From assembly GCA_007133465.1 (NCBI GenBank), contig SLMP01000073.1, positions 1-35,923 on the forward strand: a stretch of DNA of 35,923 nt, read 5' to 3'. Shown here in pieces: positions 4,196-24,372 of this stretch. The position numbers and the translations under genes are program-made. Positions within the stretch are counted from its first letter, which is position 1; the number at the start of each line of letters is the position of its first letter. The notes below the pieces were generated by a model that ran no database searches, was not told the origin of the DNA, and saw only the letters and a list, made by a program, of their open reading frames with translations. Origin of the DNA: Nitriliruptoraceae bacterium. Its GTDB lineage: Bacteria; Actinomycetota; Nitriliruptoria; Nitriliruptorales; Nitriliruptoraceae.

Positions 4196-5374
4196 TCACC
4201 CCACCGCCAGGCACCTGCCCGCCAGCACCGGCAACAGGGTCGCGACGGTCGTGGCGACGTCGGCCAGCACCTCGACGTCGACCACCTCGACGGTGTCGTC
4301 CGGCGTGTGCGCGATGGTCGCCATCACCTCGTGCACGCCGGCGGTCGTCGCCGCGAGCGCCGGGATCCCGCGCATCGCGAGCACGGCGTGGTCGCTCTCG
4401 TACCAGGGTTCGCTCAGCGCCCACCCTGGCCGGTCCGCGATGACCGCCGCGACCAGCGCATGCAGGTCGGGTGGGCAGGCCATCAGCGCGAGTGACGACC
4501 CGCGCCCCCGGAGGCCGGCGCCGTCGATGTTGACGATGGCAGCGATCTCGGTCAGGTCGGTCGCCGCCAGCCAGGCGACCTCGCCGCACGCGTCGACGTG
4601 GTCCTCACCGTTGAACGCGACCACCTCGACGGGAACGCCGGCGGGCAGCCCGTGTTCCGCGAGGGCGAGCAGGACGGCCACGCCGCCGGCGTTGTCGAAC
4701 GCCCCCGGGGTGGTGACCTTGCTGTCGACGTGCGCGCTCAGCACGAGCCGAGGGCCGGCGTCCGAGGTCCGCGCCGCGACGTTCACGCCGTCGCCGCGGT
4801 GGACGGCACCACCGAGGCGCAGCACCACCTCGGCGCCCGTGACCAGGCCGTCGGCGTCGGCGGTCCGGATCGTCGTCGACGGCACCCCAAGGTCCGGGTC
4901 CTCGATGATCGGCTGCCAGTGGTCGCTCACGGCGATCGCCGCGGCAGGTCGTGCCGCCAACAGGGCGGCCGCGATCGCGCGGTGGGTCGGCTCGGCGAGG
5001 AACGGGAACGCGACCGGCCAGAGGGGGTCGCTGGCCAGGGCACCCGTCAGGACCACGAGCCGTCCCGCGGGCCCCTCCGCCAGCCGCTCCAGCGCCGGGA
5101 GATCCGCGGCCATGACGACGCTGGCCCGGAGGTCGCAGGGTGGGCTGTAGGGGTTCGGGACGACCGTGAGGTCGCGCCCGTCCACCCGCAGCTGCCCCGG
5201 CCCTGGCTCCCACCAGCGGGTCCGGAACGGGTCGCAGCGCACGGTCAGCCCGGCGCGTTCGAGCGTCGACGCGACGTGCGTGGTGGCGCGGAGGTTCGCC
5301 GCGGACCCGGGCGGCCGAGCCCCGATGTCCTCGGCCAGGATCCGCAGGTGGTGGTCGATGCGCTCCGCCAGCAC
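4196..5374 (-). CDS. M28-family zinc metallopeptidase (aminopeptidase-like)
   Basis: 392 residues from GTG 5374, chosen because GGAGGAG sits 6 bases upstream; the frame remains open for 53 more codons with no comparable site. M28 metal ligands appear in order: SAHVDS (His about 215, Asp 217), AFDNAGG (Asp 227), NGED (Glu 257 as likely general base, Asp 258 as ligand), NIDGAG (Asp 285) and AHTPDD (His 356). A substrate-lid or PA-like insert lies between residues 70 and 190. No clear signal peptide is seen from this start, so it may be cytoplasmic. Asp rather than Glu follows the catalytic Glu, a conservative change. It lies 193 bases downstream of the ABC permease on the same strand, with no evident operon link. 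Expected activity is release of N-terminal residues or dipeptides; specificity is unknown. Confidence 0.88.
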   Translation of the reverse strand: MLAERIDHHLRILAEDIGARPPGSAANLRATTHVASTLERAGLTVRCDPFRTRWWEPGPGQLRVDGRDLTVVPNPYSPPCDLRASVVMAADLPALERLAEGPAGRLVVLTGALASDPLWPVAFPFLAEPTHRAIAAALLAARPAAAIAVSDHWQPIIEDPDLGVPSTTIRTADADGLVTGAEVVLRLGGAVHRGDGVNVAARTSDAGPRLVLSAHVDSKVTTPGAFDNAGGVAVLLALAEHGLPAGVPVEVVAFNGEDHVDACGEVAWLAATDLTEIAAIVNIDGAGLRGRGSSLALMACPPDLHALVAAVIADRPGWALSEPWYESDHAVLAMRGIPALAATTAGVHEVMATIAHTPDDTVEVVDVEVLADVATTVATLLPVLAGRCLAVG

Positions 5375-5567
5375 CGCAGACTCCTCCGGTCGCGCGCGAC
5401 CGCCCGCGCACCACGACCCTCCCCACCGTCCCACGCCGAGCACCGCGACCATGCGGGCCGAGCGTCCCCGCCGGACGGGCCCTTCGGCTACGGGCGAGCT
5501 GACCTCGGCGCAGGCGACGGAGGCGAAGGCCACGTCGCCCCGCCGCGACGACGTCGCCTTCCCGTGG

Positions 5568-7043
5568 TCAGGCCACCCGCCGGGGCAGCAGCAACCGGGC
5601 CGACCCGAAGGTCACCACCGCGATCGCGAGCAGACCGAGGGAGAGCTCGGACGGCGCCGGCTGCAGCAGCAACATCAGGTGCTGCAACCCGAGGAAGCCG
5701 TAGGTCGCCGGCAGCAGCCAGGAGACGATCTCCACCGGCATACCGATCCGCTCGAGCGGCATGAACAGCCCCGTGAAGAAGATCGCCGCCAGCAGGAGCA
5801 GCATGCAGTACTGCACCGCCTGGCTGTCGGTCTTGGACACCGACGCGACCAGGTAGCCGATCCCGAGCGAGGCCAGCAACGTCAGCGAGACGAGCAGCGT
5901 GTAGCCGAGCCAGTCCGCGGGCAGCGGCACGTCGAAGGCGAAGACGCTCAGCGCCGTGAGCGCCACGGCCGTGAGGCTCCCGAGCAGCAGGAACGCGAGG
6001 CTCTTGCCGGCCAGCCGCTCGCCGGTGGTGACCGGGGCGATCCGGAGCATGTCGAGGGTGCCGGCCTCCCGTTCCCGGACGAGCGAGAGCGCCGCGAAGG
6101 TGATACCGAGGTGCTGGAGCATGAGCGCGATCAACCCGGGCGCGTAGAACCGGTCGAGGGTCACCGCCACCGGGGTGGCGCTGTACATGTCCGCCGCGAA
6201 GGGCCGGACCGCCACCGCCGGGTCGATGCTGCGGACGAAGGTCACGACCTCGTCGACCTCCGCGAGGGTCACGGCGGCGGCGTCGAGCTCCGCGATCGCG
6301 TCGATGCGGGTCAGCGCGTCGAGCTGCTCGGCCCCCTGTCGGAGGGTGACCACGACGTCGTCGAGCTCACCGCCGAACCCGAGCTGCGCGACGAACCCGC
6401 CGCCGGACTCGAGCGTCGTGGCCAGCTCGGTGAACCGCTCCGCGAGCTGCCCCGCGGTGCGTTGCACGAACGCGACGTCCTGCTCGTCGAGCGCCGCGCG
6501 GATCGCGTCGAGTTCCTCGCGCGCGATGGCGAGCTGTTCCTCCACCCCCTCGGTCTGCTCCTGCGCCTCGCCGAGCACCTGTTCCAGGATGTCGTCGTTG
6601 ATCTCGTTGATCGCGAACTCCGCGGCGATCACGACCTGGTAGTAGGTGACCGGGTCGAGGCTGCGCTGGTGGACCTCGATGACCGCCTGCTCGCTCGCGC
6701 TGATGGAAGCGAGCGCCCCCTCCGGCAGGACGATCACGAGGTCGATGTCCCCGTTGCGCAGGCGCCGGAACGCGTCGTCCGCGTCCGCGGTGGTGCCCTG
6801 GTAGTCGATCTCCGCGGGTTCGGCACGGCTGATGTAGTCGTCGACCTGCTCGGTCAGCTCGTCCTCGTCCGCCCCGACGACCACGGTGGCGAGCGTCGGC
6901 AGCTGGTCCTCGTACCCGAGCCCGAAGACGAACAGCACGAGGAACGGTCCGAACACGAGCGCCAGTAGCAGCCGGGGCTGGCGCAGCGTCGTGACGAGCT
7001 CGCCCCGGACGAACGAACCGGTACGGATCAGACGTTCACGCAC
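5568..7043 (-). CDS. ABC-2 type exporter permease
   Basis: 491 residues from GTG 7043 (GAGGAGG 6 bases upstream), overlapping the ATPase stop by 8 bases, so the two are translationally coupled. Layout is one N-terminal transmembrane helix (about residues 24-42), a long extracytoplasmic region (about 45-300), then five or more helices ending near the C-terminus. This is the usual ABC-2 plan of YhgE/Pip-like and drug or lipid export permeases. The extracytoplasmic part is rich in Glu, Gln, Leu and Ala in a helical pattern between about 150 and 250, suggesting a coiled-coil stalk. LVREREAGTLDMLRIAPV is the typical ABC-2 coupling stretch before the membrane domain. Substrate cannot be told from the sequence. 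Confidence 0.88.
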   Translation of the reverse strand: MRERLIRTGSFVRGELVTTLRQPRLLLALVFGPFLVLFVFGLGYEDQLPTLATVVVGADEDELTEQVDDYISRAEPAEIDYQGTTADADDAFRRLRNGDIDLVIVLPEGALASISASEQAVIEVHQRSLDPVTYYQVVIAAEFAINEINDDILEQVLGEAQEQTEGVEEQLAIAREELDAIRAALDEQDVAFVQRTAGQLAERFTELATTLESGGGFVAQLGFGGELDDVVVTLRQGAEQLDALTRIDAIAELDAAAVTLAEVDEVVTFVRSIDPAVAVRPFAADMYSATPVAVTLDRFYAPGLIALMLQHLGITFAALSLVREREAGTLDMLRIAPVTTGERLAGKSLAFLLLGSLTAVALTALSVFAFDVPLPADWLGYTLLVSLTLLASLGIGYLVASVSKTDSQAVQYCMLLLLAAIFFTGLFMPLERIGMPVEIVSWLLPATYGFLGLQHLMLLLQPAPSELSLGLLAIAVVTFGSARLLLPRRVA

Positions 7044-8151: not shown

Positions 8152-9669
8152 TCAGGGTTGGAGCAACCGCAGCGCCGCGGGGCGCGTGCGCACCGTGACC
8201 TCCGTGGGCCCCTGCCAGGTCTCCCCGTCACCGGCGAGGCGCAGCGGCCCGTCCACGGACCGGACCCGCACCTCCTGCGCCGACCACCGTTCGTAGACGG
8301 GCGTGTGCGCGACCCGGCCGAGCAGCAACGCCAGCAGCAGCCGGGTACGGGCGAGACGGCGTTCCGCGGCGACCAGGCGCACGTCGAGCGTGCCGTCGTC
8401 CAACCGCCGCCGGCGGCTCGGCGCGAGGCCGTCCTCGGTGAAGCGCCCGTTGCCGAAGAACAGGAACCACACCCGCCGCCGGCGCCCGTCGATCTCGAGC
8501 TCGTAGGGGTCGTGGGTCGCGAGCACCCGCAGCAGCGCGGCGAGGGCGGCGGGCCACTTGCCGACCCTGTCCTCCCACCGCTCGCGGTCGGCGACCAGAT
8601 GGGGGTAGACCCCGACGCTCGCCGCGTTCACGAACGTCCGCCCGCCCAGTTCGCCCAGGTCCGCGACGACGACACGACCGCCGCGGACCGCCGCGATCGC
8701 GTCGTCGACGTCAGCGATCCCGACGTCCTTGGCGAGGTGGTTGAGCGTCCCGGCCGGGACGACGAGCAGCGGCACGTCGGTCGCGGTGGCGGCATCCGCT
8801 GCCGCGCTGACGCTGCCGTCGCCGCCCGCCACCCCGAGCACGGCCGCGCCCGTGGCCGCGCGCCGGAGCGCTGCGGGCAGCTCGTCCCCCTGGTCGACCG
8901 CCACGCAGCGGGTACCCGGCAGCGCGTGCTGCAGCCGCTCGACGGGATCCGCTCCCAGCGCACCCCCCGCATCGGCGTTGGTGACGAGCACCAGGCCGGT
9001 CCCGTCGACCTCGGCACGAACGGTCGCGGGACCGGCGGGTGCCCCCGTCGCCGGGGTGTCGTCCGCCAGCGGCCACGGGCGGGTGGTGACCCGGGCCACG
9101 ACGGCGCCGAGGGCGGCGCCGGCGAGGACGTCGCCGGGGTAGTGGACACCCGTGTAGACCCGCGAGTAGGCGACCGCGGACGCCAAGGCGAACAACGGGA
9201 GCCGGGCGCGACGCTGCTCGAGCGCGAAGGCGGTCGCGAACGCGAAGGCCGATGCCGAGTGGCCGGACGGGAACGAGGTGGACGCCGGCACCCGCGCGAG
9301 CCGCCGCACCTCCGGGACGAGGTCGAGGTCGGGGCGCTGCCGGCCCGCCAGGTACTTGGCCGGCAGGTTCGTCAGCGCCGAGGTGGCGCCGATCGCGAGC
9401 ACGCCGCGCAACCCGGCCCGACGCCCGAAACGTCCCCCGACGACCGCGGAGCCGGCCGCGATCGCCAGCCACAGCCTCGAGTGGTTGGCGGCCCGTGACA
9501 GGGGTGGGAGCAGCGGGCCGACCACGGGGAGCTCGGAGCGGGCCGCCGCGCGGAACACGGCGAGGTCCGCCCGCCGGATCGGGGCCGGGACCAGCCGACG
9601 GACGCGCCGTTGGACGCCACCCCACCGCGTGGTCACCTCGGTGGCGCCGCCCGGCGCGAGCGGCGTCAT
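8152..9669 (-). CDS. PAP2 phosphatase fused to diacylglycerol-kinase-like lipid kinase
   Basis: 505 residues. The N-terminal half is a membrane PAP2 phosphatase with KYLAGRQRP (Lys 105 to Pro 113), SFPSGHSAS (PSGH 134-137) and SRVYTGVHYPGD (Arg 170, His 176), the three signature blocks. The C-terminal half (from about 225) is a DAGK catalytic domain with VAGGDGSVS (GGDG 282-285), PAGTLNHLAKD (305-315) and a C-terminal beta domain. This fusion is a known actinobacterial arrangement and joins a lipid phosphate phosphatase to a lipid kinase in one membrane protein, presumably in phospholipid or glycolipid recycling. The start overlaps the upstream gene's stop as ATGA, with no good SD, so translation is probably coupled. 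An internal GTG start cannot be excluded. Confidence 0.92.
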   Translation of the reverse strand: MTPLAPGGATEVTTRWGGVQRRVRRLVPAPIRRADLAVFRAAARSELPVVGPLLPPLSRAANHSRLWLAIAAGSAVVGGRFGRRAGLRGVLAIGATSALTNLPAKYLAGRQRPDLDLVPEVRRLARVPASTSFPSGHSASAFAFATAFALEQRRARLPLFALASAVAYSRVYTGVHYPGDVLAGAALGAVVARVTTRPWPLADDTPATGAPAGPATVRAEVDGTGLVLVTNADAGGALGADPVERLQHALPGTRCVAVDQGDELPAALRRAATGAAVLGVAGGDGSVSAAADAATATDVPLLVVPAGTLNHLAKDVGIADVDDAIAAVRGGRVVVADLGELGGRTFVNAASVGVYPHLVADRERWEDRVGKWPAALAALLRVLATHDPYELEIDGRRRRVWFLFFGNGRFTEDGLAPSRRRRLDDGTLDVRLVAAERRLARTRLLLALLLGRVAHTPVYERWSAQEVRVRSVDGPLRLAGDGETWQGPTEVTVRTRPAALRLLQP

Positions 9670-16231: not shown

Positions 16232-17854
16232 GTGATCGTCGTCCGTCGCTCGCGACCCCTCCGGCTGCTCGCCGCCGCTGCGGTCAGCGCCGCCCTGCTC
16301 GCCGCGTGCACCGACGCGGACGTCGGGTCCACCGGCAACACCGAGGAACAGGCCGCTGCCGATGCGGCCGAACGCGGCCTCGAGGTCGACGGCCCGGATG
16401 GGGGCGAGGTGGTCAACGCCGAACAGCTCGAGGGCCTGACGTTCACGGCGGCGACCACCGACGAGGGGGGCCCTCTCGAGGACGTCAGCCTCCTGCTCGA
16501 CGGCACGGATGTCACCGCCGACGCGGACGTCACCGCCACCTCCCTGACCTACGCCCCCGGTGACCTCCCCGACGGCGAGCGCCTGCTCGAGCTCAGCGAC
16601 ACGGAGGAGACCCTCCATGCCTGGCGGTTCGAGGTCAAGGCGACCCCGCCGGAGCTGGAACTGACGTCACCCGACGGGCCCGTGAGTCCCGACGAGCCAC
16701 TCGTCCTGGCCGGCAGCACCGAGCCGGGCGCGACGGTCGCCGTCGGCGACGCGTCGGTGACCGCCGGCGACGACGGCAGCTTCGAACTCGAGCTCACGGA
16801 GGTCGACGCCACCCTGCCGGTCGTGGTCACCGACCGTGCCGGCAACGTCGTCGAGCACGAGGACCTGCTCGTCACCGTCGGGTCGCGGGTCGACGTGGAG
16901 GAGGTCCGGGGCATGCACATGGCCTTCTGGGCCTGGCCCGACCCCGAGCTGCGCGAACCGATCCTCGAGATGATCGACGAGGGCAAGGTCACGGCCGTCC
17001 AGATCGACCTCAAGGACGAGGGCGGGCAGATCGGCTACGAGTCGGAGGTCGGGCTCGCCCAGGAGATGGGCGCGACACGCTCCTTCCTCGACCTCGAGGC
17101 CACGGTCGCCGAACTGCACGAGCTCGAGGTCGCCGTCGTCGGGCGCATCGTCGCGTTCGCCGACCCCGTGCTCGCCTCCTGGGCGTGGGAGAACGGCAAC
17201 CAGGACTGGGTGATCCAGCTGCCCGACGGCAGCGACTTCTACCGCGGCTCGTACGCCGGGTTCTCCAACTACACCCACCCGGACGTGATCGACTACCTGC
17301 TGGACGTCGCCGAGGAGGCTGCGTCGCTGGGCGTCGACCACATCCTGTGGGACTACATCCGTCGTCCGGAGGGGCTGGAGAACTACGTCGTGCCGGGGCT
17401 CACGACCACCCCGGAGGAGGCGGTCGTCTCCTTCACGCAGCAGGCGGACGAGCGGCTCGCCCCGTACGGCGTGCAACACGGCGCGAGCGTCTACGGCATC
17501 GCCGCCGACCGTCCGACGCAGATCGGTCAGGACATCCCCGGGATGGCCGACCACCTCGACTACGTGGCGCCGATGATCTACCCGTCGCACTGGGGACCCG
17601 GCGAGTACGGCATCGACGACCCGAACGCACGGCCGTACGACATCGTGCGGGCCACGCTGCAGATCTGGAACGAGACCGTCGATGGGCACCGCGCCCGCGT
17701 CGTGCCGTGGCTCGAGGACACGAGCTACCGCGCCTGGGACCGGCCGTTGCAGATCCGCGAGCAGATCCGCGGGGCCGCCGACGAGGGCATCGACGAGTGG
17801 CTGATGTGGAACCCGAGCTCGCGGTTCACCTACGACGCCTACGACCCGTACTGA
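16232..17854 (+). CDS. lipoprotein with DUF4015 putative glycoside hydrolase domain
   Basis: 540 residues from GTG 16232, preferred because it places a signal peptide (VVRRSRPLRLLAAAAVSAAL) at the N-terminus with a lipobox LLAAC at Cys 26; only a weak AGG precedes it, so the start is less certain. An acidic linker and one or two Ig-like beta domains (about 50-220) lead to the DUF4015 barrel: MHMAFWAWPDPELREPI, AVQIDLKDEGGQIGYES, ILWDYIRRPEG and APMIYPSHWGPGEYG are characteristic. The acidic residues in DLKDEGG and DYIRRPEG are candidate catalytic or binding positions. It is probably a surface-anchored enzyme acting on a polysaccharide; substrate unknown. It is convergent with a radical SAM gene, overlapping by 16 bases. 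Confidence 0.85.
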   Translation: MIVVRRSRPLRLLAAAAVSAALLAACTDADVGSTGNTEEQAAADAAERGLEVDGPDGGEVVNAEQLEGLTFTAATTDEGGPLEDVSLLLDGTDVTADADVTATSLTYAPGDLPDGERLLELSDTEETLHAWRFEVKATPPELELTSPDGPVSPDEPLVLAGSTEPGATVAVGDASVTAGDDGSFELELTEVDATLPVVVTDRAGNVVEHEDLLVTVGSRVDVEEVRGMHMAFWAWPDPELREPILEMIDEGKVTAVQIDLKDEGGQIGYESEVGLAQEMGATRSFLDLEATVAELHELEVAVVGRIVAFADPVLASWAWENGNQDWVIQLPDGSDFYRGSYAGFSNYTHPDVIDYLLDVAEEAASLGVDHILWDYIRRPEGLENYVVPGLTTTPEEAVVSFTQQADERLAPYGVQHGASVYGIAADRPTQIGQDIPGMADHLDYVAPMIYPSHWGPGEYGIDDPNARPYDIVRATLQIWNETVDGHRARVVPWLEDTSYRAWDRPLQIREQIRGAADEGIDEWLMWNPSSRFTYDAYDPY

Positions 17855-19077
17855 GTCGCGGCGGGCTCCGGCGACGACGCATCGCCGGAGCCGTGCTCGG
17901 CCATCAGCTCCGCCCACAGCGGCTCGATCAGGCGGTAGGTGACCGCACGCTCGACGTCGTGGTACCGGTCGTAGCCGCCAGCGGTCAGGTGGAGCCCGTC
18001 CGGGGTCGACGCCAGCCAACCCGCCGCCCGCCCGAGGTGCAGCGCCGCGGTCAGCAGCCGCTCGCCGCCGGGGCCACGAGCGACGAACCCGGTCGGGACC
18101 GCGCCGGTGTAGAGCTGCCAGAACAGCCGGTACGCCCCGGCGGCGCTGGGTGACAGCTGCGCGAGCCGCGCGATCGGCAGTCGGCCGGCGTCCACCGCGG
18201 CGAGGTAGGGCGCGAGCCCGAAGTGGTCGACGAGGAACCAGGTGCCCGCCGAGGACGCGGCACCGGCGCCGACGCCGAGGTAGGCGGCGCGGGTGATCGA
18301 CGAGTAGGTCGGCCCACCGACGCGGTTGAAGGTCCAGACCGACCGCCGTTCGTAGCCGTGCGCCGCGGCCAGGTCGGTCGCCTCCCGCAACAGCCGGTGC
18401 TCCCGCCGGGGCTGGTGCGGGCGCTTGCCGAACGGGGTGTAGCCGAACCGCATCAGCGGGTAGGTCGAGACCTGGTCGGCACCCATCGCGAAGCAGGTCG
18501 CGAGGTCCGTCAGCAAGACCTCGGGCCGGTCGAACGCGGTGTCGAACAGCAGGTCCACGTCCACGCAGCGGAACCGACCGACGGCGCGGGCGACGGCCTC
18601 GCGGTTCTGCGTGGCCGTCGTCGGACGCCGCAGGTGACGCAGCACCTCGGGGTCGAACGACTGCACACCGAGGCTGACCGCATCGAACCCGGCCGCGAGC
18701 AGACGGGAGGCCATCGGATCGTTCAGGTGCGAGGGCAGGACCTCGATGGCGCGCTCGCCGGTCACGGTGACGCGCCGGGCGATCCGCTCGACGAGTTCGG
18801 GGCACAGCGTCGGCGTACCGCCCCCGACGTAGAGCGAGGTGAACGGCTCCGCTCCCGCCACGAGGTAGGCGTCGAGCTCACGCTGCAGGGCCGTGCCGTA
18901 GTCGGCGGCCAGGCCGCCGTGGTAGCGCACCTTGTTGTAGGGGCAGAACGGGCACAGCGACCGACAGAACGGGATGTGGACGTAGAGGCCGGGCCGGTCC
19001 CGGAAGTGGCGCAGCACGCTCGCCGCGTCGGGGGGCGGGTCAGGGGTCCTGAAGCGCACCCCTGGCAGCCGTCGCAT
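17839..19077 (-). CDS. HemN/HemW-like radical SAM protein
   Basis: 412 residues. The iron-sulfur motif CRSLCPFC (Cys 38, 42, 45, spacing C-x3-C-x2-C) follows YVHIPF, then YVGGGTPTL and SLGVQSFDPEVLRHLRR, all typical of the coproporphyrinogen-oxidase-like radical SAM family; a C-terminal HemN-like helical domain is present. The family includes the oxygen-independent heme enzyme HemN, heme chaperone HemW and many enzymes of unknown substrate. PYNK after the cluster cysteines differs from ordinary HemW, so no specific role is assigned. No heme genes are nearby. The ATG at 19077 has only a poor SD, so the N-terminus is uncertain. The 3' end overlaps the DUF4015 gene by 16 bases. Confidence 0.85.
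   Translation of the reverse strand: MRRLPGVRFRTPDPPPDAASVLRHFRDRPGLYVHIPFCRSLCPFCPYNKVRYHGGLAADYGTALQRELDAYLVAGAEPFTSLYVGGGTPTLCPELVERIARRVTVTGERAIEVLPSHLNDPMASRLLAAGFDAVSLGVQSFDPEVLRHLRRPTTATQNREAVARAVGRFRCVDVDLLFDTAFDRPEVLLTDLATCFAMGADQVSTYPLMRFGYTPFGKRPHQPRREHRLLREATDLAAAHGYERRSVWTFNRVGGPTYSSITRAAYLGVGAGAASSAGTWFLVDHFGLAPYLAAVDAGRLPIARLAQLSPSAAGAYRLFWQLYTGAVPTGFVARGPGGERLLTAALHLGRAAGWLASTPDGLHLTAGGYDRYHDVERAVTYRLIEPLWAELMAEHGSGDASSPEPAATQYGS
17864..17892 (+). terminator. hairpin terminator of the DUF4015 gene, inside the opposite gene
   Basis: A perfect 11-bp stem, GGCTCCGGCGA (17864-17874) with TCGCCGGAGCC (17882-17892) and a 7-base loop, beginning 10 bases after the stop at 17854. It lies within the last codons of the convergent radical SAM gene, where it encodes a Gly/Ser/Asp/Pro-rich tail. 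Confidence 0.65.
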
Positions 19078-19136: not shown

Positions 19137-21350
19137 TCAGTCCGCGGACGATGCCTCGTCCGCCGCCTCCGGGGGGACACCGAGGTAGTGCACGGTCACC
19201 GTGGGCTCGCCGTCGCTGTGCGCGTCACGGAACGACCACAGGGTGTCGTGCAGGACCCCGACGGTGTCGCGGCCGTCCCCGGTGACGTCCCCGACCACGG
19301 GCACGTCGGCGGGAGCGTCCCCGAAGGCGAAGACCACGTCCGCGTTCCCGGCGGCGAGGGTGTTGCGCAGCAGCCAGCGACCGTCCCGCCGCACCCCGAC
19401 GGTGTCGCGCCCGTCGCCGTTCCAGTCGCCGACGAAGGGTTCGTCTGCCGGTTCACGACCGAAGACGAAGACGTGGTCGGGTTCGGTGTCCGCGTGGTCG
19501 TCGAGCAGCAGCCACGTGTCCCCGCGACGGACCCCGACGGTGGCGCGCCCATCGCCGTTCCAGTCGCCGACGACCGGGATGTCGTCGTCCTCGCCGAACT
19601 CGACGACCTGGACCGCGGTGCCGGCCGCGAGTTCGTCGTGCAGGTGGAAGCGACCGTCCCGCCAGACGCCGATGGTGTCGTGGCCGTCGCCGTTCCAGTC
19701 GCCGACGACGGCGATGTCCCCCGCCCGCCGGCCGTAGTGGACGACGACGTCGTCACCCTCGGGCGTCGCGGCCTGGAGGTGGAAGTGCTCGCCGATGCGC
19801 CAGCCCGGGGTGTCGATCCCGTCGCCGTTCCAGTCCCCCAGCAGGGGGACGCCCGGCGCGGGACCGTACGCGAAGGTCAGGTCGCCCTCCCCCGCGGCGT
19901 GCTCGTTGCGCAGCAGCCACTCGTCGCCGGCGACGACCGCGCCGACGGTCGTGCGCCCGTCGGCGTTCCAGTCGCCGACGACGGGGACCGCGTCCTCGTG
20001 CTGGCCGAAGTCGAAGGATCGGTCCGCGTAGCCGGCGGCGAGCACGTCCCGCAGCAGCCACCTGCCGTCGGGGTGCCAGGCACCCACCGTGGTGCGCCCG
20101 TCGCCGTTCCAGTCGCCCACGATGCCGACGGCGTCATCGGCACGCCCGAACACGACATGGTGGTCCGCCTCACCGTCGGCCAGTTCGTCGCGCAGGAACC
20201 ACTCCCCGCCGGCACGGCGCACACCGACCGTCGTGCGGCCGTCGCCGTTCCAGTCGCCGACGAAGCCCACGTCCTCCGCCCCCTCCCCGAACACGAAGTC
20301 GTGGTCGGGTGCGCCGGGCGCGTTGGTGTCACGCAGCAGCCACCGGTCCCCACGGCGCACACCGATCGTGTCGGTGCCGTCACCGTTCCAGTCGCCGACG
20401 ACGGGCTGGTCGGTTGGCAGCCCGAAGCTCACGACGGCGTCGGTGTGCCCCGCTGCGCCGGCCTCCCGCAGGTAGAAGCGGTCGCCGATGCGCCAGCCCG
20501 GCGTGGCGTGACCGTCGCCGTTCCAGTCGCCGACCAGCGGAGCCGGCACGGAGGCCGCCTGGGGGTTGCCGACCGGGCCGGACAGGAAGATCGCGGCGTG
20601 GGCCGGGTCGATGTCCCCCGGATTGATGTCCCCCGGGTAGTCGCCCCGTTGCTCCGCGGCGCGGAGGCTGAAGTAGGGGTTGATGCGGTGGGATCCGTCG
20701 GGGGCTCGGACCGCCGGGTCGTGGATCTCGAAGTGCAGGTGCGGGTAGGGCTCGGTGGCGTTGCCCGAGTAGCCCGCGTACCCGAGGTGCTGCCCACGCT
20801 CGACCACCGATCCGCAGGTGATCCCGGGGGCGTACGCCTCGACGGCCGGCCCGTCGTTCGTGCCGAAGTGCAGGTACCAGTACTCGCGCCCGTCGTCCCC
20901 ATCGACCCGGATCGCGTACCCCCAGGCGGGGGGCTCGTCGAGCGCGCCCGCCGCCGCCGACCCACACCCGAGGCCGGTGATCAGCCCGACCGTGCCGCCG
21001 ACGACCGCGTGGATCGGGGTGCCGGTGTCGACCATCACGTCCGTCGCGCCGTGGTCGCCGCGCCGCCGTGGCTGGACGTAGTCGTTGAAGTAGGAGTAGC
21101 GGGCACCCCAGTAGCGGGCTTCCGGCGAGACCGGAAAGGTCAGGTCGACGACCTGCTCGTGGTTGCCGGTGGGTGCCGGCGCCCGACGACCCCGCTGCTG
21201 CGGGTCGCCGGCCTGCGCACCCGACCGGTCCTCGGACGCGGTGCCTGCGCTGTCATGCTGGTCGTGGGCGACCGCGGCAGGCCCCCCGGCCACCAGCAGC
21301 GTCAGGACGAGCGCGCCCACCAGCAGCGTCGGTACGACTCGATGCTCCAA
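19137..21350 (-). CDS. secreted M23 metallopeptidase with ten WNGDG repeats, paralog A
   Basis: 737 residues. The only start in frame after an upstream TAG is TTG 21350, with GGAG 3 bases upstream. A signal peptide (about 1-28) is followed by a Gln/Arg/Pro linker and an M23 (LytM) domain with HGATD (His 100, Asp 104), YLHFG (His 161) and HLHFE (His 204, His 206): zinc ligands and catalytic His all present. Two cysteines in GLGCGS and GITCGS probably form a disulfide. From about 271 there are ten repeats of about 45 residues, each opening with a variant of VGDWNGDG. Repeats 1 and 6 share TPGWRIG, and 2 and 7 share DTIGV, so the array is 5+5. Likely a cell-wall endopeptidase with a calcium-binding propeller-like adhesive or regulatory tail; the substrate bond is unknown. 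Confidence 0.92.
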   Translation of the reverse strand: MEHRVVPTLLVGALVLTLLVAGGPAAVAHDQHDSAGTASEDRSGAQAGDPQQRGRRAPAPTGNHEQVVDLTFPVSPEARYWGARYSYFNDYVQPRRRGDHGATDVMVDTGTPIHAVVGGTVGLITGLGCGSAAAGALDEPPAWGYAIRVDGDDGREYWYLHFGTNDGPAVEAYAPGITCGSVVERGQHLGYAGYSGNATEPYPHLHFEIHDPAVRAPDGSHRINPYFSLRAAEQRGDYPGDINPGDIDPAHAAIFLSGPVGNPQAASVPAPLVGDWNGDGHATPGWRIGDRFYLREAGAAGHTDAVVSFGLPTDQPVVGDWNGDGTDTIGVRRGDRWLLRDTNAPGAPDHDFVFGEGAEDVGFVGDWNGDGRTTVGVRRAGGEWFLRDELADGEADHHVVFGRADDAVGIVGDWNGDGRTTVGAWHPDGRWLLRDVLAAGYADRSFDFGQHEDAVPVVGDWNADGRTTVGAVVAGDEWLLRNEHAAGEGDLTFAYGPAPGVPLLGDWNGDGIDTPGWRIGEHFHLQAATPEGDDVVVHYGRRAGDIAVVGDWNGDGHDTIGVWRDGRFHLHDELAAGTAVQVVEFGEDDDIPVVGDWNGDGRATVGVRRGDTWLLLDDHADTEPDHVFVFGREPADEPFVGDWNGDGRDTVGVRRDGRWLLRNTLAAGNADVVFAFGDAPADVPVVGDVTGDGRDTVGVLHDTLWSFRDAHSDGEPTVTVHYLGVPPEAADEASSAD
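19176..20540 (-). repeat. ten-copy protein repeat array in M23 peptidase A
   Basis: Ten copies of about 135 bases encoding GDWNGDGxxTxGVRRG(D/x)RWLLR...FG units. The DxNxDG core resembles calcium-binding loops. Copy 5 has DWNADG and copy 10 has DVTGDG. Boundaries are approximate. The copies are also visible at DNA level as a recurring GTCGCCGTTCCAGTC core on the plus strand. Confidence 0.9.
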
Positions 21351-21394
21351 GGTCTCCCACCCGATCGGTCCGGTTCGCTACAGCTGCCGGCCCG

Positions 21395-21400
21395 ACTCTA
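21395..21400 (-). promoter_or_regulatory. possible -10 element TAGAGT for M23 peptidase A
   Basis: On the minus strand TAGAGT fits TAnnnT, 45 bases before the TTG start, with TTCCGT 17 bases further upstream as a weak -35. The 210-base gap between the two M23 genes leaves room for a separate promoter. Confidence 0.3.
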
Positions 21401-21560
21401 CTCCCCTCCCCGGTCCCACGGAACGCAGGGGGCCGGCGGTGGGCGACGGGCGCCCGGGCGAGACTGCCACGCGCGCTGCGCTCCCCGCGCGAAACCATGA
21501 ACCTCTACTTCAGGTCGAATATCGGACGGCCCCCGGCCGACACCGCGCCCCCCGCGAGGA

Positions 21561-23639
21561 TCAGCCGGCGTAGCGGTAGGTCAGCGACGTCGGGCCCGCG
21601 CTGTTCGCGTTGCGCAGGAACCACTCGGTGTCGATCAGGTAGCCCACGGTGTCCTGCCCGTTGCCGTTGAAGTCCCCGGTGATGCCGACGGCCGCGGGGT
21701 GCGAGCCGTGGTTGAAGGCCACGTCGGCGAACCCGGCCGCGAGGCGGTTGCGTAGCAGCCACCGGTCACCGCGCCGCACACCGACCGTGTCCCGACCGTT
21801 GCCGTTCCAGTCCCCCACGATCGGGACATCGCGCGGGTCGATGCCGAAACGGAAGTTGTGGTCGGCAGCGCCCGAGGACAGCGTGTTGCGCAGCAGCCAG
21901 CGATCGCCGCGACGCACACCGACGGAGTCGCGGCCGTTGCCGTTCCAGTCACCGACGACCGGGATGTCGGACGCCTCACCGAAGGTCACGATGTGGTCGG
22001 CGTTGCCGGACACGAGGTTGTCGCGCAGGAGGAACCGGTTGCCCCGCCGGACGCCGATCGTGTCGCGTCCGTTGCCGTTCCAGTCGCCGACGACCGGGAT
22101 GTCCTCAGGGCTCGTCCCGAACCGGGCGACGAGGTCGCGTCCGTCGCTGGCCGCGCGGTGCAGGTGGAAGCGCTGACCGATCCGCCACCCCGGGGTGTCG
22201 CGACCGTCGCCGTTCCAGTCGCCCATGAGCGGCACCCCCGGCGCCGGCCCGTAGACCACCGTGTCGTTGCTGAAGCCCGACGAGTGGAAGTTGCGACGCA
22301 ACCAGCGGTTGCCGTCGACGACGGCCCCGACGGTCGTGCGCCCATCGCCGTTCCAGTCCCCGACCACCGGCTTCGCGTCGGCGGCCCTCCCGAACGTGAA
22401 GGAGTGGTTGGCGTTGCCCGCGGCGTGCACGTTGCGCAGCAGCCACCTGCCGCCGGGGTGCCAGGCACCGACCGTGGTCCGACCATCGCCGTTCCAGTCA
22501 CCGACCACGCCGACGGCGTCGGAGGCGCGTCCGAAGACGTAACGCAGGTCCGCGGGCCCGCTCGACAGGCGGTTGCGCAAGAACCACTCGCCGCCCGGGC
22601 GACGCATCCCGACCGTGTCGCGCCCGTCGCCGTTCCAGTCACCGACGAAGCCGACCGCGTCGCGGTGCTCACCGAACGAGAAATCGTGGTCCGGCGCCCC
22701 GGGCGTGTTGCTGTTGCGCAGCATCCAGCGGTTGCCACGCCGGACACCGATCGTGTCTCGCCCGTCGCCGTTCCAGTCGCCGACGACCGGGTGGTCCGTC
22801 GGGAGGCCGAACGGCACGACGACATCCGAACCGCCGGACCGGTTCGCCGCGAGCAGGTAGAACCGGTCACCGATGCGCCAGCCCGGCGTCTCCACACCGT
22901 TGCCGTTCCAGTCGCCCGACAGCGGGGCGGGCAGGACGGCCGGGTGCGGGGCCCAACCGGTTGTCGCCTCGCTCGGTGGTGGCGGGGCCGGCGCGGGAGC
23001 GGGTGCGGTGCTCGTGCGGTTCGGGAAATCGCCCCGCTGCTCAGCCGACTGCAAGCTGAAGTAGGGGTTGATGCGGTCGGAACCGTCCGGCGCGTTGGTG
23101 ATCCGGTTGTCACGGATCTCGAAGTGCAGGTGCGGGTAGAGCGCGCTGGCGTTGCCCGAGTGGGCGGCGTACCCCAGGTGCTGCCCGCGCACGACCTGCG
23201 AGCCGCACGTGATCCCCGGCGCGTAGGCCTCGGACGCCGGGCCGGTCTGGGTCCCGAGGTGGATGTACCAGTAGTCGCGGCCGTCGTCGGCCGACAGCCG
23301 GATCGCGTAGCCCCAGGACGGAGGGTTGTTCAGCGAGCCGTGCGCGGCCGAACCACACCCGAGCCCGGTGATGAGCGTGACCCGTCCACTACGCGCCGCG
23401 TACACCGAGGTCCCTGCGTCGACCATGATGTCGGTCGCCCCGTGGTACCCGCGACTGCGTGGCTCGTAGTAGTCGTTGCGGTAGGTGTAGGGACCGGTCT
23501 TGTACCGCGCGTCCGACGCGACCGGGAAGGTGATGTCGACCGTCTGCTGGTAGCTCGTCGACGCCAACGCCGGCGCCGCGATCAGCGACAGTCCGGCGAT
23601 CATCGCGCCGAGCACGAGGCTGATCGCGACACGACGCAC
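21561..23639 (-). CDS. secreted M23 metallopeptidase with ten WNGDG repeats, paralog B
   Basis: 692 residues from GTG 23639, with GGAGG 6 bases upstream; the frame is open further upstream, but that part is not protein-like. Signal peptide about 1-27 (ends APALAS). M23 domain: HGATD (His 66, Asp 70), YIHLG (His 127), HLHFE (His 170, His 172), and the same two cysteines in GLGCGS and GITCGS. A Pro/Ala linker (about 208-235) leads to ten repeats from about 239 that match paralog A copy for copy. Repeats 1 and 7 to 10 read WNGNG rather than WNGDG, still with Asp/Asn side chains suited to metal binding. It ends right after repeat 10, without paralog A's acidic tail. Same orientation as paralog A, which lies 210 bases downstream: a tandem whole-gene duplication. 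Confidence 0.93.
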   Translation of the reverse strand: MRRVAISLVLGAMIAGLSLIAAPALASTSYQQTVDITFPVASDARYKTGPYTYRNDYYEPRSRGYHGATDIMVDAGTSVYAARSGRVTLITGLGCGSAAHGSLNNPPSWGYAIRLSADDGRDYWYIHLGTQTGPASEAYAPGITCGSQVVRGQHLGYAAHSGNASALYPHLHFEIRDNRITNAPDGSDRINPYFSLQSAEQRGDFPNRTSTAPAPAPAPPPPSEATTGWAPHPAVLPAPLSGDWNGNGVETPGWRIGDRFYLLAANRSGGSDVVVPFGLPTDHPVVGDWNGDGRDTIGVRRGNRWMLRNSNTPGAPDHDFSFGEHRDAVGFVGDWNGDGRDTVGMRRPGGEWFLRNRLSSGPADLRYVFGRASDAVGVVGDWNGDGRTTVGAWHPGGRWLLRNVHAAGNANHSFTFGRAADAKPVVGDWNGDGRTTVGAVVDGNRWLRRNFHSSGFSNDTVVYGPAPGVPLMGDWNGDGRDTPGWRIGQRFHLHRAASDGRDLVARFGTSPEDIPVVGDWNGNGRDTIGVRRGNRFLLRDNLVSGNADHIVTFGEASDIPVVGDWNGNGRDSVGVRRGDRWLLRNTLSSGAADHNFRFGIDPRDVPIVGDWNGNGRDTVGVRRGDRWLLRNRLAAGFADVAFNHGSHPAAVGITGDFNGNGQDTVGYLIDTEWFLRNANSAGPTSLTYRYAG
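21564..22925 (-). repeat. ten-copy protein repeat array in M23 peptidase B
   Basis: Ten units of about 135 bases, arranged as in paralog A: units 1 and 6 carry TPGWRIG, unit 4 AWHPGGRWLLRN, unit 5 VVYGPAPGV. Unit 10 has GDFNGNG and closes the protein. Boundaries are approximate. Confidence 0.9.
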
Positions 23640-23745: not shown

Positions 23746-23847
23746 GGCCACGCGGGAACCATCGATGCCGTCCGAGCGTTCGCGGCGGTGCGGCCGCTCG
23801 GGCGGACCCGGAGCGGTCGGACGACCGGCAGCGATCGCTCGATGATC

Positions 23848-23895
23848 ACGACCCGCAACCGCCACGAGAAGACGACCCGCAACCGCCACGAGAAG
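23848..23895 (+). repeat. perfect 24-bp tandem duplication before the NUDIX gene
   Basis: Two identical 24-base copies (23848-23871, 23872-23895) sit directly before the NUDIX start. The unit is eight codons long and in frame with the gene, encoding TTRNRHEK twice if translation begins at an upstream ATG. With the preferred start at 23902 it is 5'-UTR and its end supplies the AGAGG of the ribosome site. Confidence 0.9.
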
Positions 23896-23901
23896 AGGAC
23901 G

Positions 23902-24372
23902 ATGGTGGCACGACGCAGCGCGGGGCTGCTCGTCTTCCGACGCGGCCAGGGAGGACTCGAGGTGCTCCTGGTGCACCCCGGCGGACCGCTGTGGGCACGC
24001 CGCGATCGCGGCGCCTGGTCCCTACCGAAGGGCGAGTACCAGCCCGACGAGGACGCCGTCGATGCCGCCCATCGCGAATTCGAAGAGGAACTGGGGCTGC
24101 CCGCCCCCACCGGCCGGTTGGTGCCGCTCGGCGAGGTCACGCAGGCGGGCGGCAAGGTGGTGACCGCCTGGGCCGTGGAGGGCGACCTCGACCCGGAAGC
24201 GATCGTGCCGGGCACCTTCGAGCTGGAGTGGCCACGCGGATCGGGGACGGTGCGCTCGTTCCCGGAGGTCGACCGCGTCGCGTGGTTCGACGTCTCGGAG
24301 GCACGCACGCGCATCCTCGCAGGACAGCGCCCGCTCCTCGATCGTTTGGAGGCGCGACTGACCGGCCGCTGA
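23902..24372 (+). CDS. NUDIX hydrolase
   Basis: 156 residues from ATG 23902 (a GTG follows at 23905); AGAGG is just upstream and favours either. An in-frame ATG at 23842 would add 20 residues including an eight-residue tandem repeat but has no SD. The Nudix box is intact: G 44, E 50, then REFEEELG (58-65), fitting G-x5-E-x7-RE-U-x-EE-x-G-U. AGLLVFRRGQGGLEVLLVHPGG and AWSLPKGEY are typical of the diadenosine-tetraphosphate/MutT-like subgroup found in many bacteria. It likely cleaves a nucleoside diphosphate-linked compound in the cytoplasm; substrate not determined. Its stop lies in a hairpin shared with the convergent DUF5655 gene. Confidence 0.9.
   Translation: MVARRSAGLLVFRRGQGGLEVLLVHPGGPLWARRDRGAWSLPKGEYQPDEDAVDAAHREFEEELGLPAPTGRLVPLGEVTQAGGKVVTAWAVEGDLDPEAIVPGTFELEWPRGSGTVRSFPEVDRVAWFDVSEARTRILAGQRPLLDRLEARLTGR

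Follow-up and report, generated by a model that had tools for sequence, protein, structure and literature searches.

Two tandem M23 peptidases of a Nitriliruptoraceae bacterium, each probably held on the cell wall by a pair of five-bladed propellers

Bacteria are known to keep their wall enzymes in place with a limited range of anchor domains. Propellers of the VCBS type make up a well-described supercluster of lectin-like domains (Pereira and Lupas 2021, PMC8023676). In highly repetitive propellers the number of blades differs from case to case, the median being six, and the long array of a 15-blade WD40-like protein is predicted to split into two propellers (PMC9218822). The propeller of UmbA4 binds wall teichuronic acid, with single substitutions in two pockets impairing killing, and twelve families of five-bladed UmbA propellers have been named (PMC13274773). 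Tachylectin-2 is a five-bladed lectin made of five tandem motifs of ~47 residues (PMC4735018), and Gp45 of the Staphylococcus aureus phage phi11 is reported to contain a five-bladed propeller and binds walls with teichoic acid modified by N-acetylglucosamine (GlcNAc) (PMC4876445). Here we analyse two neighbouring genes, A and B, in a stretch of 35,923 nucleotides from a Nitriliruptoraceae bacterium (contig SLMP01000073.1, assembly GCA_007133465.1; the whole stretch is called the window below). A and B probably represent tandem paralogous secreted M23 wall peptidases, which two five-bladed propellers of the VCBS/FG-GAP kind anchor on a wall polymer.

The genes have the coordinates and frame that an earlier note, made from the letters of this DNA, had given them, and their products are 64% identical (437 of 685 aligned residues). 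Their features are as follows:

19137..21350, minus strand: gene A, predicted secreted M23 peptidase with ten repeats, 737 amino acids, TTG start at 21350
21267..21350, minus strand: A, probable Sec signal peptide, residues 1-28, ending in AVA, read from the sequence
20718..21053, minus strand: A, M23 domain, Pfam residues 100-211 (PF01551, 38.3 bits; H100, D104, H161, H204, H206)
19848..20540, minus strand: A, five-repeat module 1, repeats 1-5, residues 271-501
19167..19847, minus strand: A, five-repeat module 2, repeats 6-10, residues 502-728
21561..23639, minus strand: gene B, predicted secreted M23 peptidase with ten repeats, 692 amino acids, GTG start at 23639
23562..23639, minus strand: B, probable Sec signal peptide, residues 1-26, ending in ALA, read from the sequence
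23103..23447, minus strand: B, M23 domain, Pfam residues 65-179 (PF01551, 40.2 bits; H66, D70, H127, H170, H172)
22233..22928, minus strand: B, five-repeat module 1, repeats 1-5, residues 238-469; unbroken full-length match to a hidden Markov model (HMM) of 20 non-window modules
21564..22232, minus strand: B, five-repeat module 2, repeats 6-10, residues 470-692; the AlphaFold2 model covers residues 466-692

Both N-termini carry a hydrophobic signal-like stretch followed by an A-x-A site (recognised by eye rather than by a predictor), and both proteins are probably exported. The PF01551 matches are above the curated cut-off of 28.7 bits, and HxxxD and HxH, which we take to be the zinc and catalytic residues of M23, are present in A and B together with WYLH (A), WYIH (B) and HLH (both); the putative active-site residues listed above are invariant between the two proteins. 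By cut-off and motifs A and B classify as members of the M23 (LytM/lysostaphin-type) family, with a predicted peptidoglycan endopeptidase activity. Among 25 M23 relatives, that is, loci brought in by an M23 search, CWB2 is present in 13, SLH in nine, PG_binding_1 in one and none of these in two, so that 23 of the 25 end in a known wall-binding domain. The nearest of them (L003) is 64% identical over the M23 region, groups with A and B in the M23 tree (support 94/96) and carries SLH. Therefore, the propellers fill the slot of known wall-binding domains. CWB2, SLH and PG_binding_1 are usually regarded as domains that keep a protein on the wall of the cell producing it.

The module itself was found on many other proteins. 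We collected the relatives that carry it, from the same family and phylum, mostly by means of a five-repeat profile to which the window modules had contributed. Of their 88 module open reading frames (ORFs), 45, chosen by us and not at random, were searched with Pfam. Peptidoglycan-acting domains are present in 21 of the 45 (Amidase_2 in nine, SpoIID in five, M23 in two, glucosaminidase in two, and transglycosylase-like, M15_4 and phage endolysin (PHROGs) in one each) and a polysaccharide deacetylase in four more; the remaining 20 include CAP, VanW, NAGPA, subtilase, nuclease and GSDH proteins and proteins without a named domain. The architecture of A and B had been called unusual, which holds for the double propeller but less so for the combination as such, since M23 is joined to one module in 4 of the 88 non-window ORFs (L097, L099, one ORF each of L144 and L146) and many wall enzymes turn out to carry the module. 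A phage endolysin (L152:3404-4651, plus strand, in IMGVR_UViG_3300027784_000086; phrog_1493, E 3.9e-20) has a five-repeat module at its C-terminal end, where endolysins commonly carry a wall-binding part. A tblastn search of 50,697 phage records with the B module and the L152 module gave no match at E 1e-5, and the endolysin case therefore rests on metagenomic contigs. Scans with a whole protein gave no match in the genome collection or in viral sequences, and a scan of the genome collection with the repeats gave five loci.

Some individual loci may be mentioned here. L154 is an amidase with two repeats. At L131:552-5619 (plus strand, genome G123) a SpoIID gene and an amidase gene adjoin, with a module on each. 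At L052:3326-4696 and 4700-6076 (plus strand, Actinoplanes sp. NBRC 103695) two adjacent genes have differing N-terminal parts and share almost the same five-blade module, apparently through shuffling of the module not long ago.

We consider it most likely that the modules are wall-polymer-binding anchors rather than adhesins and that the enzymes act on the producer's own wall. Three observations point to the wall: the known wall-binding domains in the same slot of the M23 relatives, the module on other peptidoglycan-acting enzymes, and the closest structural match, UmbA4, whose propeller binds teichuronic acid (PMC13274773), with the wall-binding Gp45 of phi11 as a further five-bladed example (PMC4876445). 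After export, the two propellers would dock on repeating sugar units of a wall carbohydrate polymer (teichoic or teichuronic acid-like) and so would keep the peptidase at its substrate, with the M23 domain cutting nearby peptide cross-links. The benefit of a double propeller may be more avidity, or two specificities for two polymers. A surface adhesin or wall-sensing enzyme, as had been suggested in the earlier note, is less likely than a wall-anchoring or targeting domain.

The alternative that survives best, unlikely as we judge it, is that the propellers are adhesion domains for surfaces outside the producer (host, substrate or other cells), the M23 domain being secondary or attacking competitors as part of a lectin-aimed bacteriolysin. 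Such an enzyme would agree with Zoocin A, which we take to be a bacteriolysin and which is the top PDB hit by sequence for the M23 domain (E 0.0022). Against it, no immunity gene was noticed beside A and B, though no systematic search for one was made. Propellers of the VCBS type are often lectins (PMC8023676), those of UmbA proteins are aimed at other bacteria (PMC13274773) and a biofilm adhesin has a predicted N-terminal five-bladed propeller (PMC12153261), but the modules studied here are found on wall enzymes (SpoIID proteins, amidases and glucosaminidases) and take the place of domains that, in 23 of the 25 M23 relatives, are generally thought of as holding the protein on its own cell.

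Considerably less probable is a purely mechanical role, in which the propellers would bind nothing and serve as structural spacers, or calcium-dependent rigidifiers, pushing the peptidase through the wall. The strong internal repetition and the Asp/Asn-rich loops would suit it, and each repeat had been credited with a DxNx(D/N)G loop able to bind calcium. Over the 20 window repeats this loop is well kept at its first positions, with D at position 1 in 20/20, N or D at position 3 in 19/20, D or N at position 5 in 20/20 and G at position 6 in 20/20. The nine-position calcium loop consensus is, as we assume, DxDxDGxxD, and position 9 is D or E in 0/20 window repeats, being T or S in all 20; an acid is found there in 5 of the 100 repeats of the 20 other modules. 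Judging from these loops, calcium binding by the repeats is doubtful, and since the ninth-position acid is missing throughout the window repeats, calcium is not assumed in the mechanism above. The C-terminal place of the modules on M23 enzymes and on the endolysin also suits a binding domain better, as a spacer would lie between two functional parts.

What is the structural unit of the proposed anchor then? A and B each contain ten GD[WFV][NT][GA][DN]G repeats of 45-47 residues, starting GDWNGDG or similar, with identical spacing in the two proteins (45, 46, 47, 47, 46, 45, 45, 46, 46). Repeats 5 and 6 adjoin without a linker and the array is continuous. Exact DNA repeats reach at most 27 base pairs (bp) in A and 25 bp in B, a length at which a short-read assembly could resolve the array; ten therefore seems a reliable count. 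The earlier note had seen a periodicity of five in these repeats, from TPGWRIG in repeats 1 and 6 and DTIGV in repeats 2 and 7; both motifs are present as described in both proteins. The shortened strand ascribed to repeats 1 and 6 is not special to them, since repeat 7 is also 45 residues long and the hairpin residue is also missing in repeats 2, 7, 8, 9 and 10. The mean lag-5 similarity over all five pairs is reached by 3.7% (A) and 7.8% (B) of shuffles, but without pair 1/6 by 29% and 56%. In neither protein do repeats 2 and 7 pair best with each other (the best partner of A2 is A8 and that of B2 is B8), and DTIGV is one residue off the commoner DTVGV. Thus the 1/6 and 2/7 pairing, set beforehand as a test, strictly half passed: 1/6 holds and 2/7 does not. 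The pairings 2/7, 3/8, 4/9 and 5/10 were rejected as evidence of a period of five, on the basis of both shuffles and position-specific HMMs, and over the window repeats as a whole that period appears weak.

The relatives are more informative. We counted blades with a single-repeat HMM built from the 20 non-window modules in 84 of the 88 module ORFs, excluding four cut by contig ends; the 84 include two fragments from a single place (L110). Five blades were found in 58 ORFs, four in 19, three in two, two in two, one in two, ten in one and six to nine in none. With one vote per 75%-identity cluster (n=64) the figures are five in 45, four in 15, two in two, three in one and ten in one. By eye, three circular permutations exist among the modules (five whole repeats; half a repeat, four repeats and half a repeat; strands B-C-D, four repeats and strand A), as a closed propeller allows. 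The SpoIID-domain protein L133:4004-7042 (plus strand, genome G088) has ten repeats arranged as 5+5, with a worn strand A both behind blade five and at the very end, which is what two closed rings would give. L133 is thus a further double module, on a different wall enzyme. From these comparisons five repeats are the natural unit of the module, as judged from sequence.

The first blade of this unit carries a mark. GW in strand B is found at position 1 in 16 of the 20 non-window modules and at positions 2-5 in 0 of 80 cases; these modules were hand-picked among those starting with strand A and include near-copies (L037, L043, L101), so they do not represent 20 independent cases. With position-specific HMMs of the same 20 modules, position 1 gives the highest score for each of the repeats A1, A6, B1 and B6 (4/4). 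We therefore read TPGWRIG as the mark of the first blade in each module, the other four blades having no usable register. In B, the module HMM gives an unbroken full-length match only for starts at repeats 1 and 6.

An AlphaFold2 model of B repeats 6-10 is confident, with a predicted local distance difference test (pLDDT) score of 94.8, a predicted template modelling (pTM) score of 0.89 and 20 strands, equal to five blades of four strands. The input was ten sequences: the four window modules, four from bacteria or archaea and two from viral contigs. At the level of this model, B repeats 6-10 are four-stranded propeller blades. Among solved structures the closest match is UmbA4 (9oee_A; Foldseek E 6.2e-8; Z 13.7 over 218 residues, root-mean-square deviation 3.9, 24% identity), which is also the top PDB sequence-profile match, a weak one (E 0.0056). 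Next in structure are the PVL-type GlcNAc lectins (PDB 2bwr, 5mb4 and 4tqm; Z 10.6-11.9), and 5c2m, an entry titled as a tachylectin-2 study, aligns with Z 10.3 over 190 residues at 5% identity. Tachylectin-2 itself (1TL2) is not among the 50 matches listed in the structural comparison and no tachylectin appeared in the PDB sequence searches; Foldseek of the module against viral models gave no match at E <= 0.001. FG-GAP_3 (PF13517) is the only propeller family reported by Pfam for A and B, with scores (19.5 and 21.6 bits) under the cut-off of 26.9 bits, which the related module proteins L133 and L141 exceed (27.2 and 43.6 bits). The modules thus look and, as far as the model tells, probably work like VCBS/FG-GAP propellers, but we do not file A and B as FG-GAP_3 members because of the cut-off.

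Several observations pull the other way. The fetching profile, itself of five repeats, may favour fives, although extra repeats in the same ORF would still count, and four blades are counted in 19 of the 84 relatives. Some of these are undercounts (by eye, L138, the plus-strand L146 ORF and L151 have five with a worn first blade) and several look real (by eye, L047, L136 and the plus-strand L095 ORF are true fours; the second L096 ORF also counts four). The register in the window is blurred: position 1 is the best-scoring place for A7 and B4 too; of the 16 window repeats that are not first blades, A2 and B2 alone are best at their expected position; the summed module-HMM score in B is highest for a start at repeat 5; no register in A yields one unbroken match; and, scanned over its full length, each protein is matched three times with overlaps, the second match beginning at repeat 4. 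The module model was judged by confidence scores and strand count, and nearly full-length B, modelled with A as its sole companion sequence, has a mean pLDDT of 37, so two rings were not predicted directly. As to function, the module is also carried by proteins with a beta-helix (L136), GSDH (L144 2732-4633), a lamin-tail nuclease (L038) and a subtilase (L037), so it is not confined to wall enzymes.

One deacetylase module cluster has three, four and five blades in three genomes (L104, L045 and L036, respectively), with near-identical repeats; this change in blade number may be real or an assembly collapse, which exact repeats of 50-100 bp make possible.

Relatives, the single-module model, the blade-1 mark and the structural matches together lead us to infer that the C-terminal parts of A and B most likely form two separate five-bladed rings each, as had been proposed from the repeats, although the nearly full-length model (pLDDT 37) does not predict this directly. 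The least probable alternative of all is that repeats 1-10 make up a single structure, be it a ten-bladed ring, a solenoid or an open array, for although the repeats run on without a linker between 5 and 6, the nearly full-length model is uninformative and the module HMM places neither protein's two halves cleanly in register, single five-repeat modules are the commonest form and six to nine repeats occur in no relative, L133 has its degenerate strand A where two rings would end, a lone module models confidently and blade-1 signatures stand at repeats 1 and 6.

The order of duplications can be read from a tree of 24 modules, in which A1-5 groups with B1-5 (100/99), A6-10 with B6-10 (95/91) and all four window modules together (99/97). 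A tree with A1-5 and A6-10 as sisters was rejected (approximately unbiased test, p-AU 4.9e-6). Therefore, the module most likely doubled first and the gene afterwards. The duplication of a five-repeat block, claimed in the earlier note, is supported by the module tree and blade 1, while repeats 2/7, 3/8, 4/9 and 5/10 give it no backing. A single origin of the M23-propeller fusion is not rejected by the M23 tree (p-AU 0.062) but is rejected by the module tree (p-AU 0.0008), which suggests that the fusion arose two or more times; given the poor resolution of the M23 tree, we put this forward cautiously.

The immediate neighbours of A and B are:

17839-19077, minus strand: radical SAM gene
23788-24372, plus strand: NUDIX gene

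There is no hint of a dedicated system around A and B among the ten window ORFs scanned. Elsewhere in the window a PAP2 phosphatase is fused to a diacylglycerol-kinase domain (8152-9669, minus strand). The host genome assembly (2.77 Mb in 174 contigs, 88.7% complete) contains five M23 loci, and the module profile matches it nowhere except at the four modules of A and B. SLH is found in two ORFs, on contigs other than that of A and B, and no CWB2 was found in a scan of the contigs of this 88.7% complete genome.

The fold is thus known, and its use as an exchangeable wall anchor appears to be little described: among the matches listed in a literature search (title and start of abstract, mostly without subscription papers) none dealt with five-bladed propellers that anchor peptidoglycan hydrolases. 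We give about even chances to a broader proposal, that five-bladed VCBS-type propellers serve actinobacteria as a further exchangeable wall anchor, next to SLH and CWB2. The module would have been shuffled among M23 peptidases, amidases, SpoIID proteins, glucosaminidases and deacetylases, taken up by one or more phage endolysins and doubled in A and B for avidity or for two polymers. If so, many 'FG-GAP' or hypothetical proteins would gain a role and phage endolysins with the module would have a readable host-range domain. The presence of SLH, CWB2 or peptidoglycan-binding repeats in the propeller slot of relatives makes the wall-binding role directly testable, and the propeller could serve to stain or target actinobacterial wall polymers. 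The five-repeat unit with its permutations is also a good natural set for studying propeller duplication.

The VCBS/FG-GAP supercluster (PF13517, PF01839) is described as having a four-stranded blade of ~45 residues with a DxNxDG-type AB loop, as in A and B, although the examples of known structure named in that source have seven blades as opposed to five in the A/B modules (PMC8023676). A and B also differ from it in scores below the Pfam cut-off and in the absent ninth acid of the metal loop. UmbA4 (PDB 9oee), from the umbrella particles of Streptomyces, is likewise actinobacterial and secreted, with its propeller on a trypsin-like N-terminal domain, but it has six blades and is part of a toxin particle attacking other species, while the partner in A and B is M23; the likeness is known for the six-bladed UmbA4 only (PMC13274773). 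Umbrella-like components were not reported among the ten window ORFs scanned.

Among lectins, the tachylectin-2 study entry 5c2m, known to us by its title, aligns with the module at only 5% identity. The fungal PVL-type lectins (2bwr, 5mb4, 4tqm) are by their entry titles VCBS-like propellers binding GlcNAc, PVL having seven blades rather than five (PMC8023676). Gp45 of phi11 is a receptor-binding protein of a phage tail and is likened to A and B by its description only (PMC4876445). Finally, M23 peptidases with SLH or CWB2 belong to the same peptidase family as A and B, and their wall-binding part is a domain of another family than the A/B propellers.

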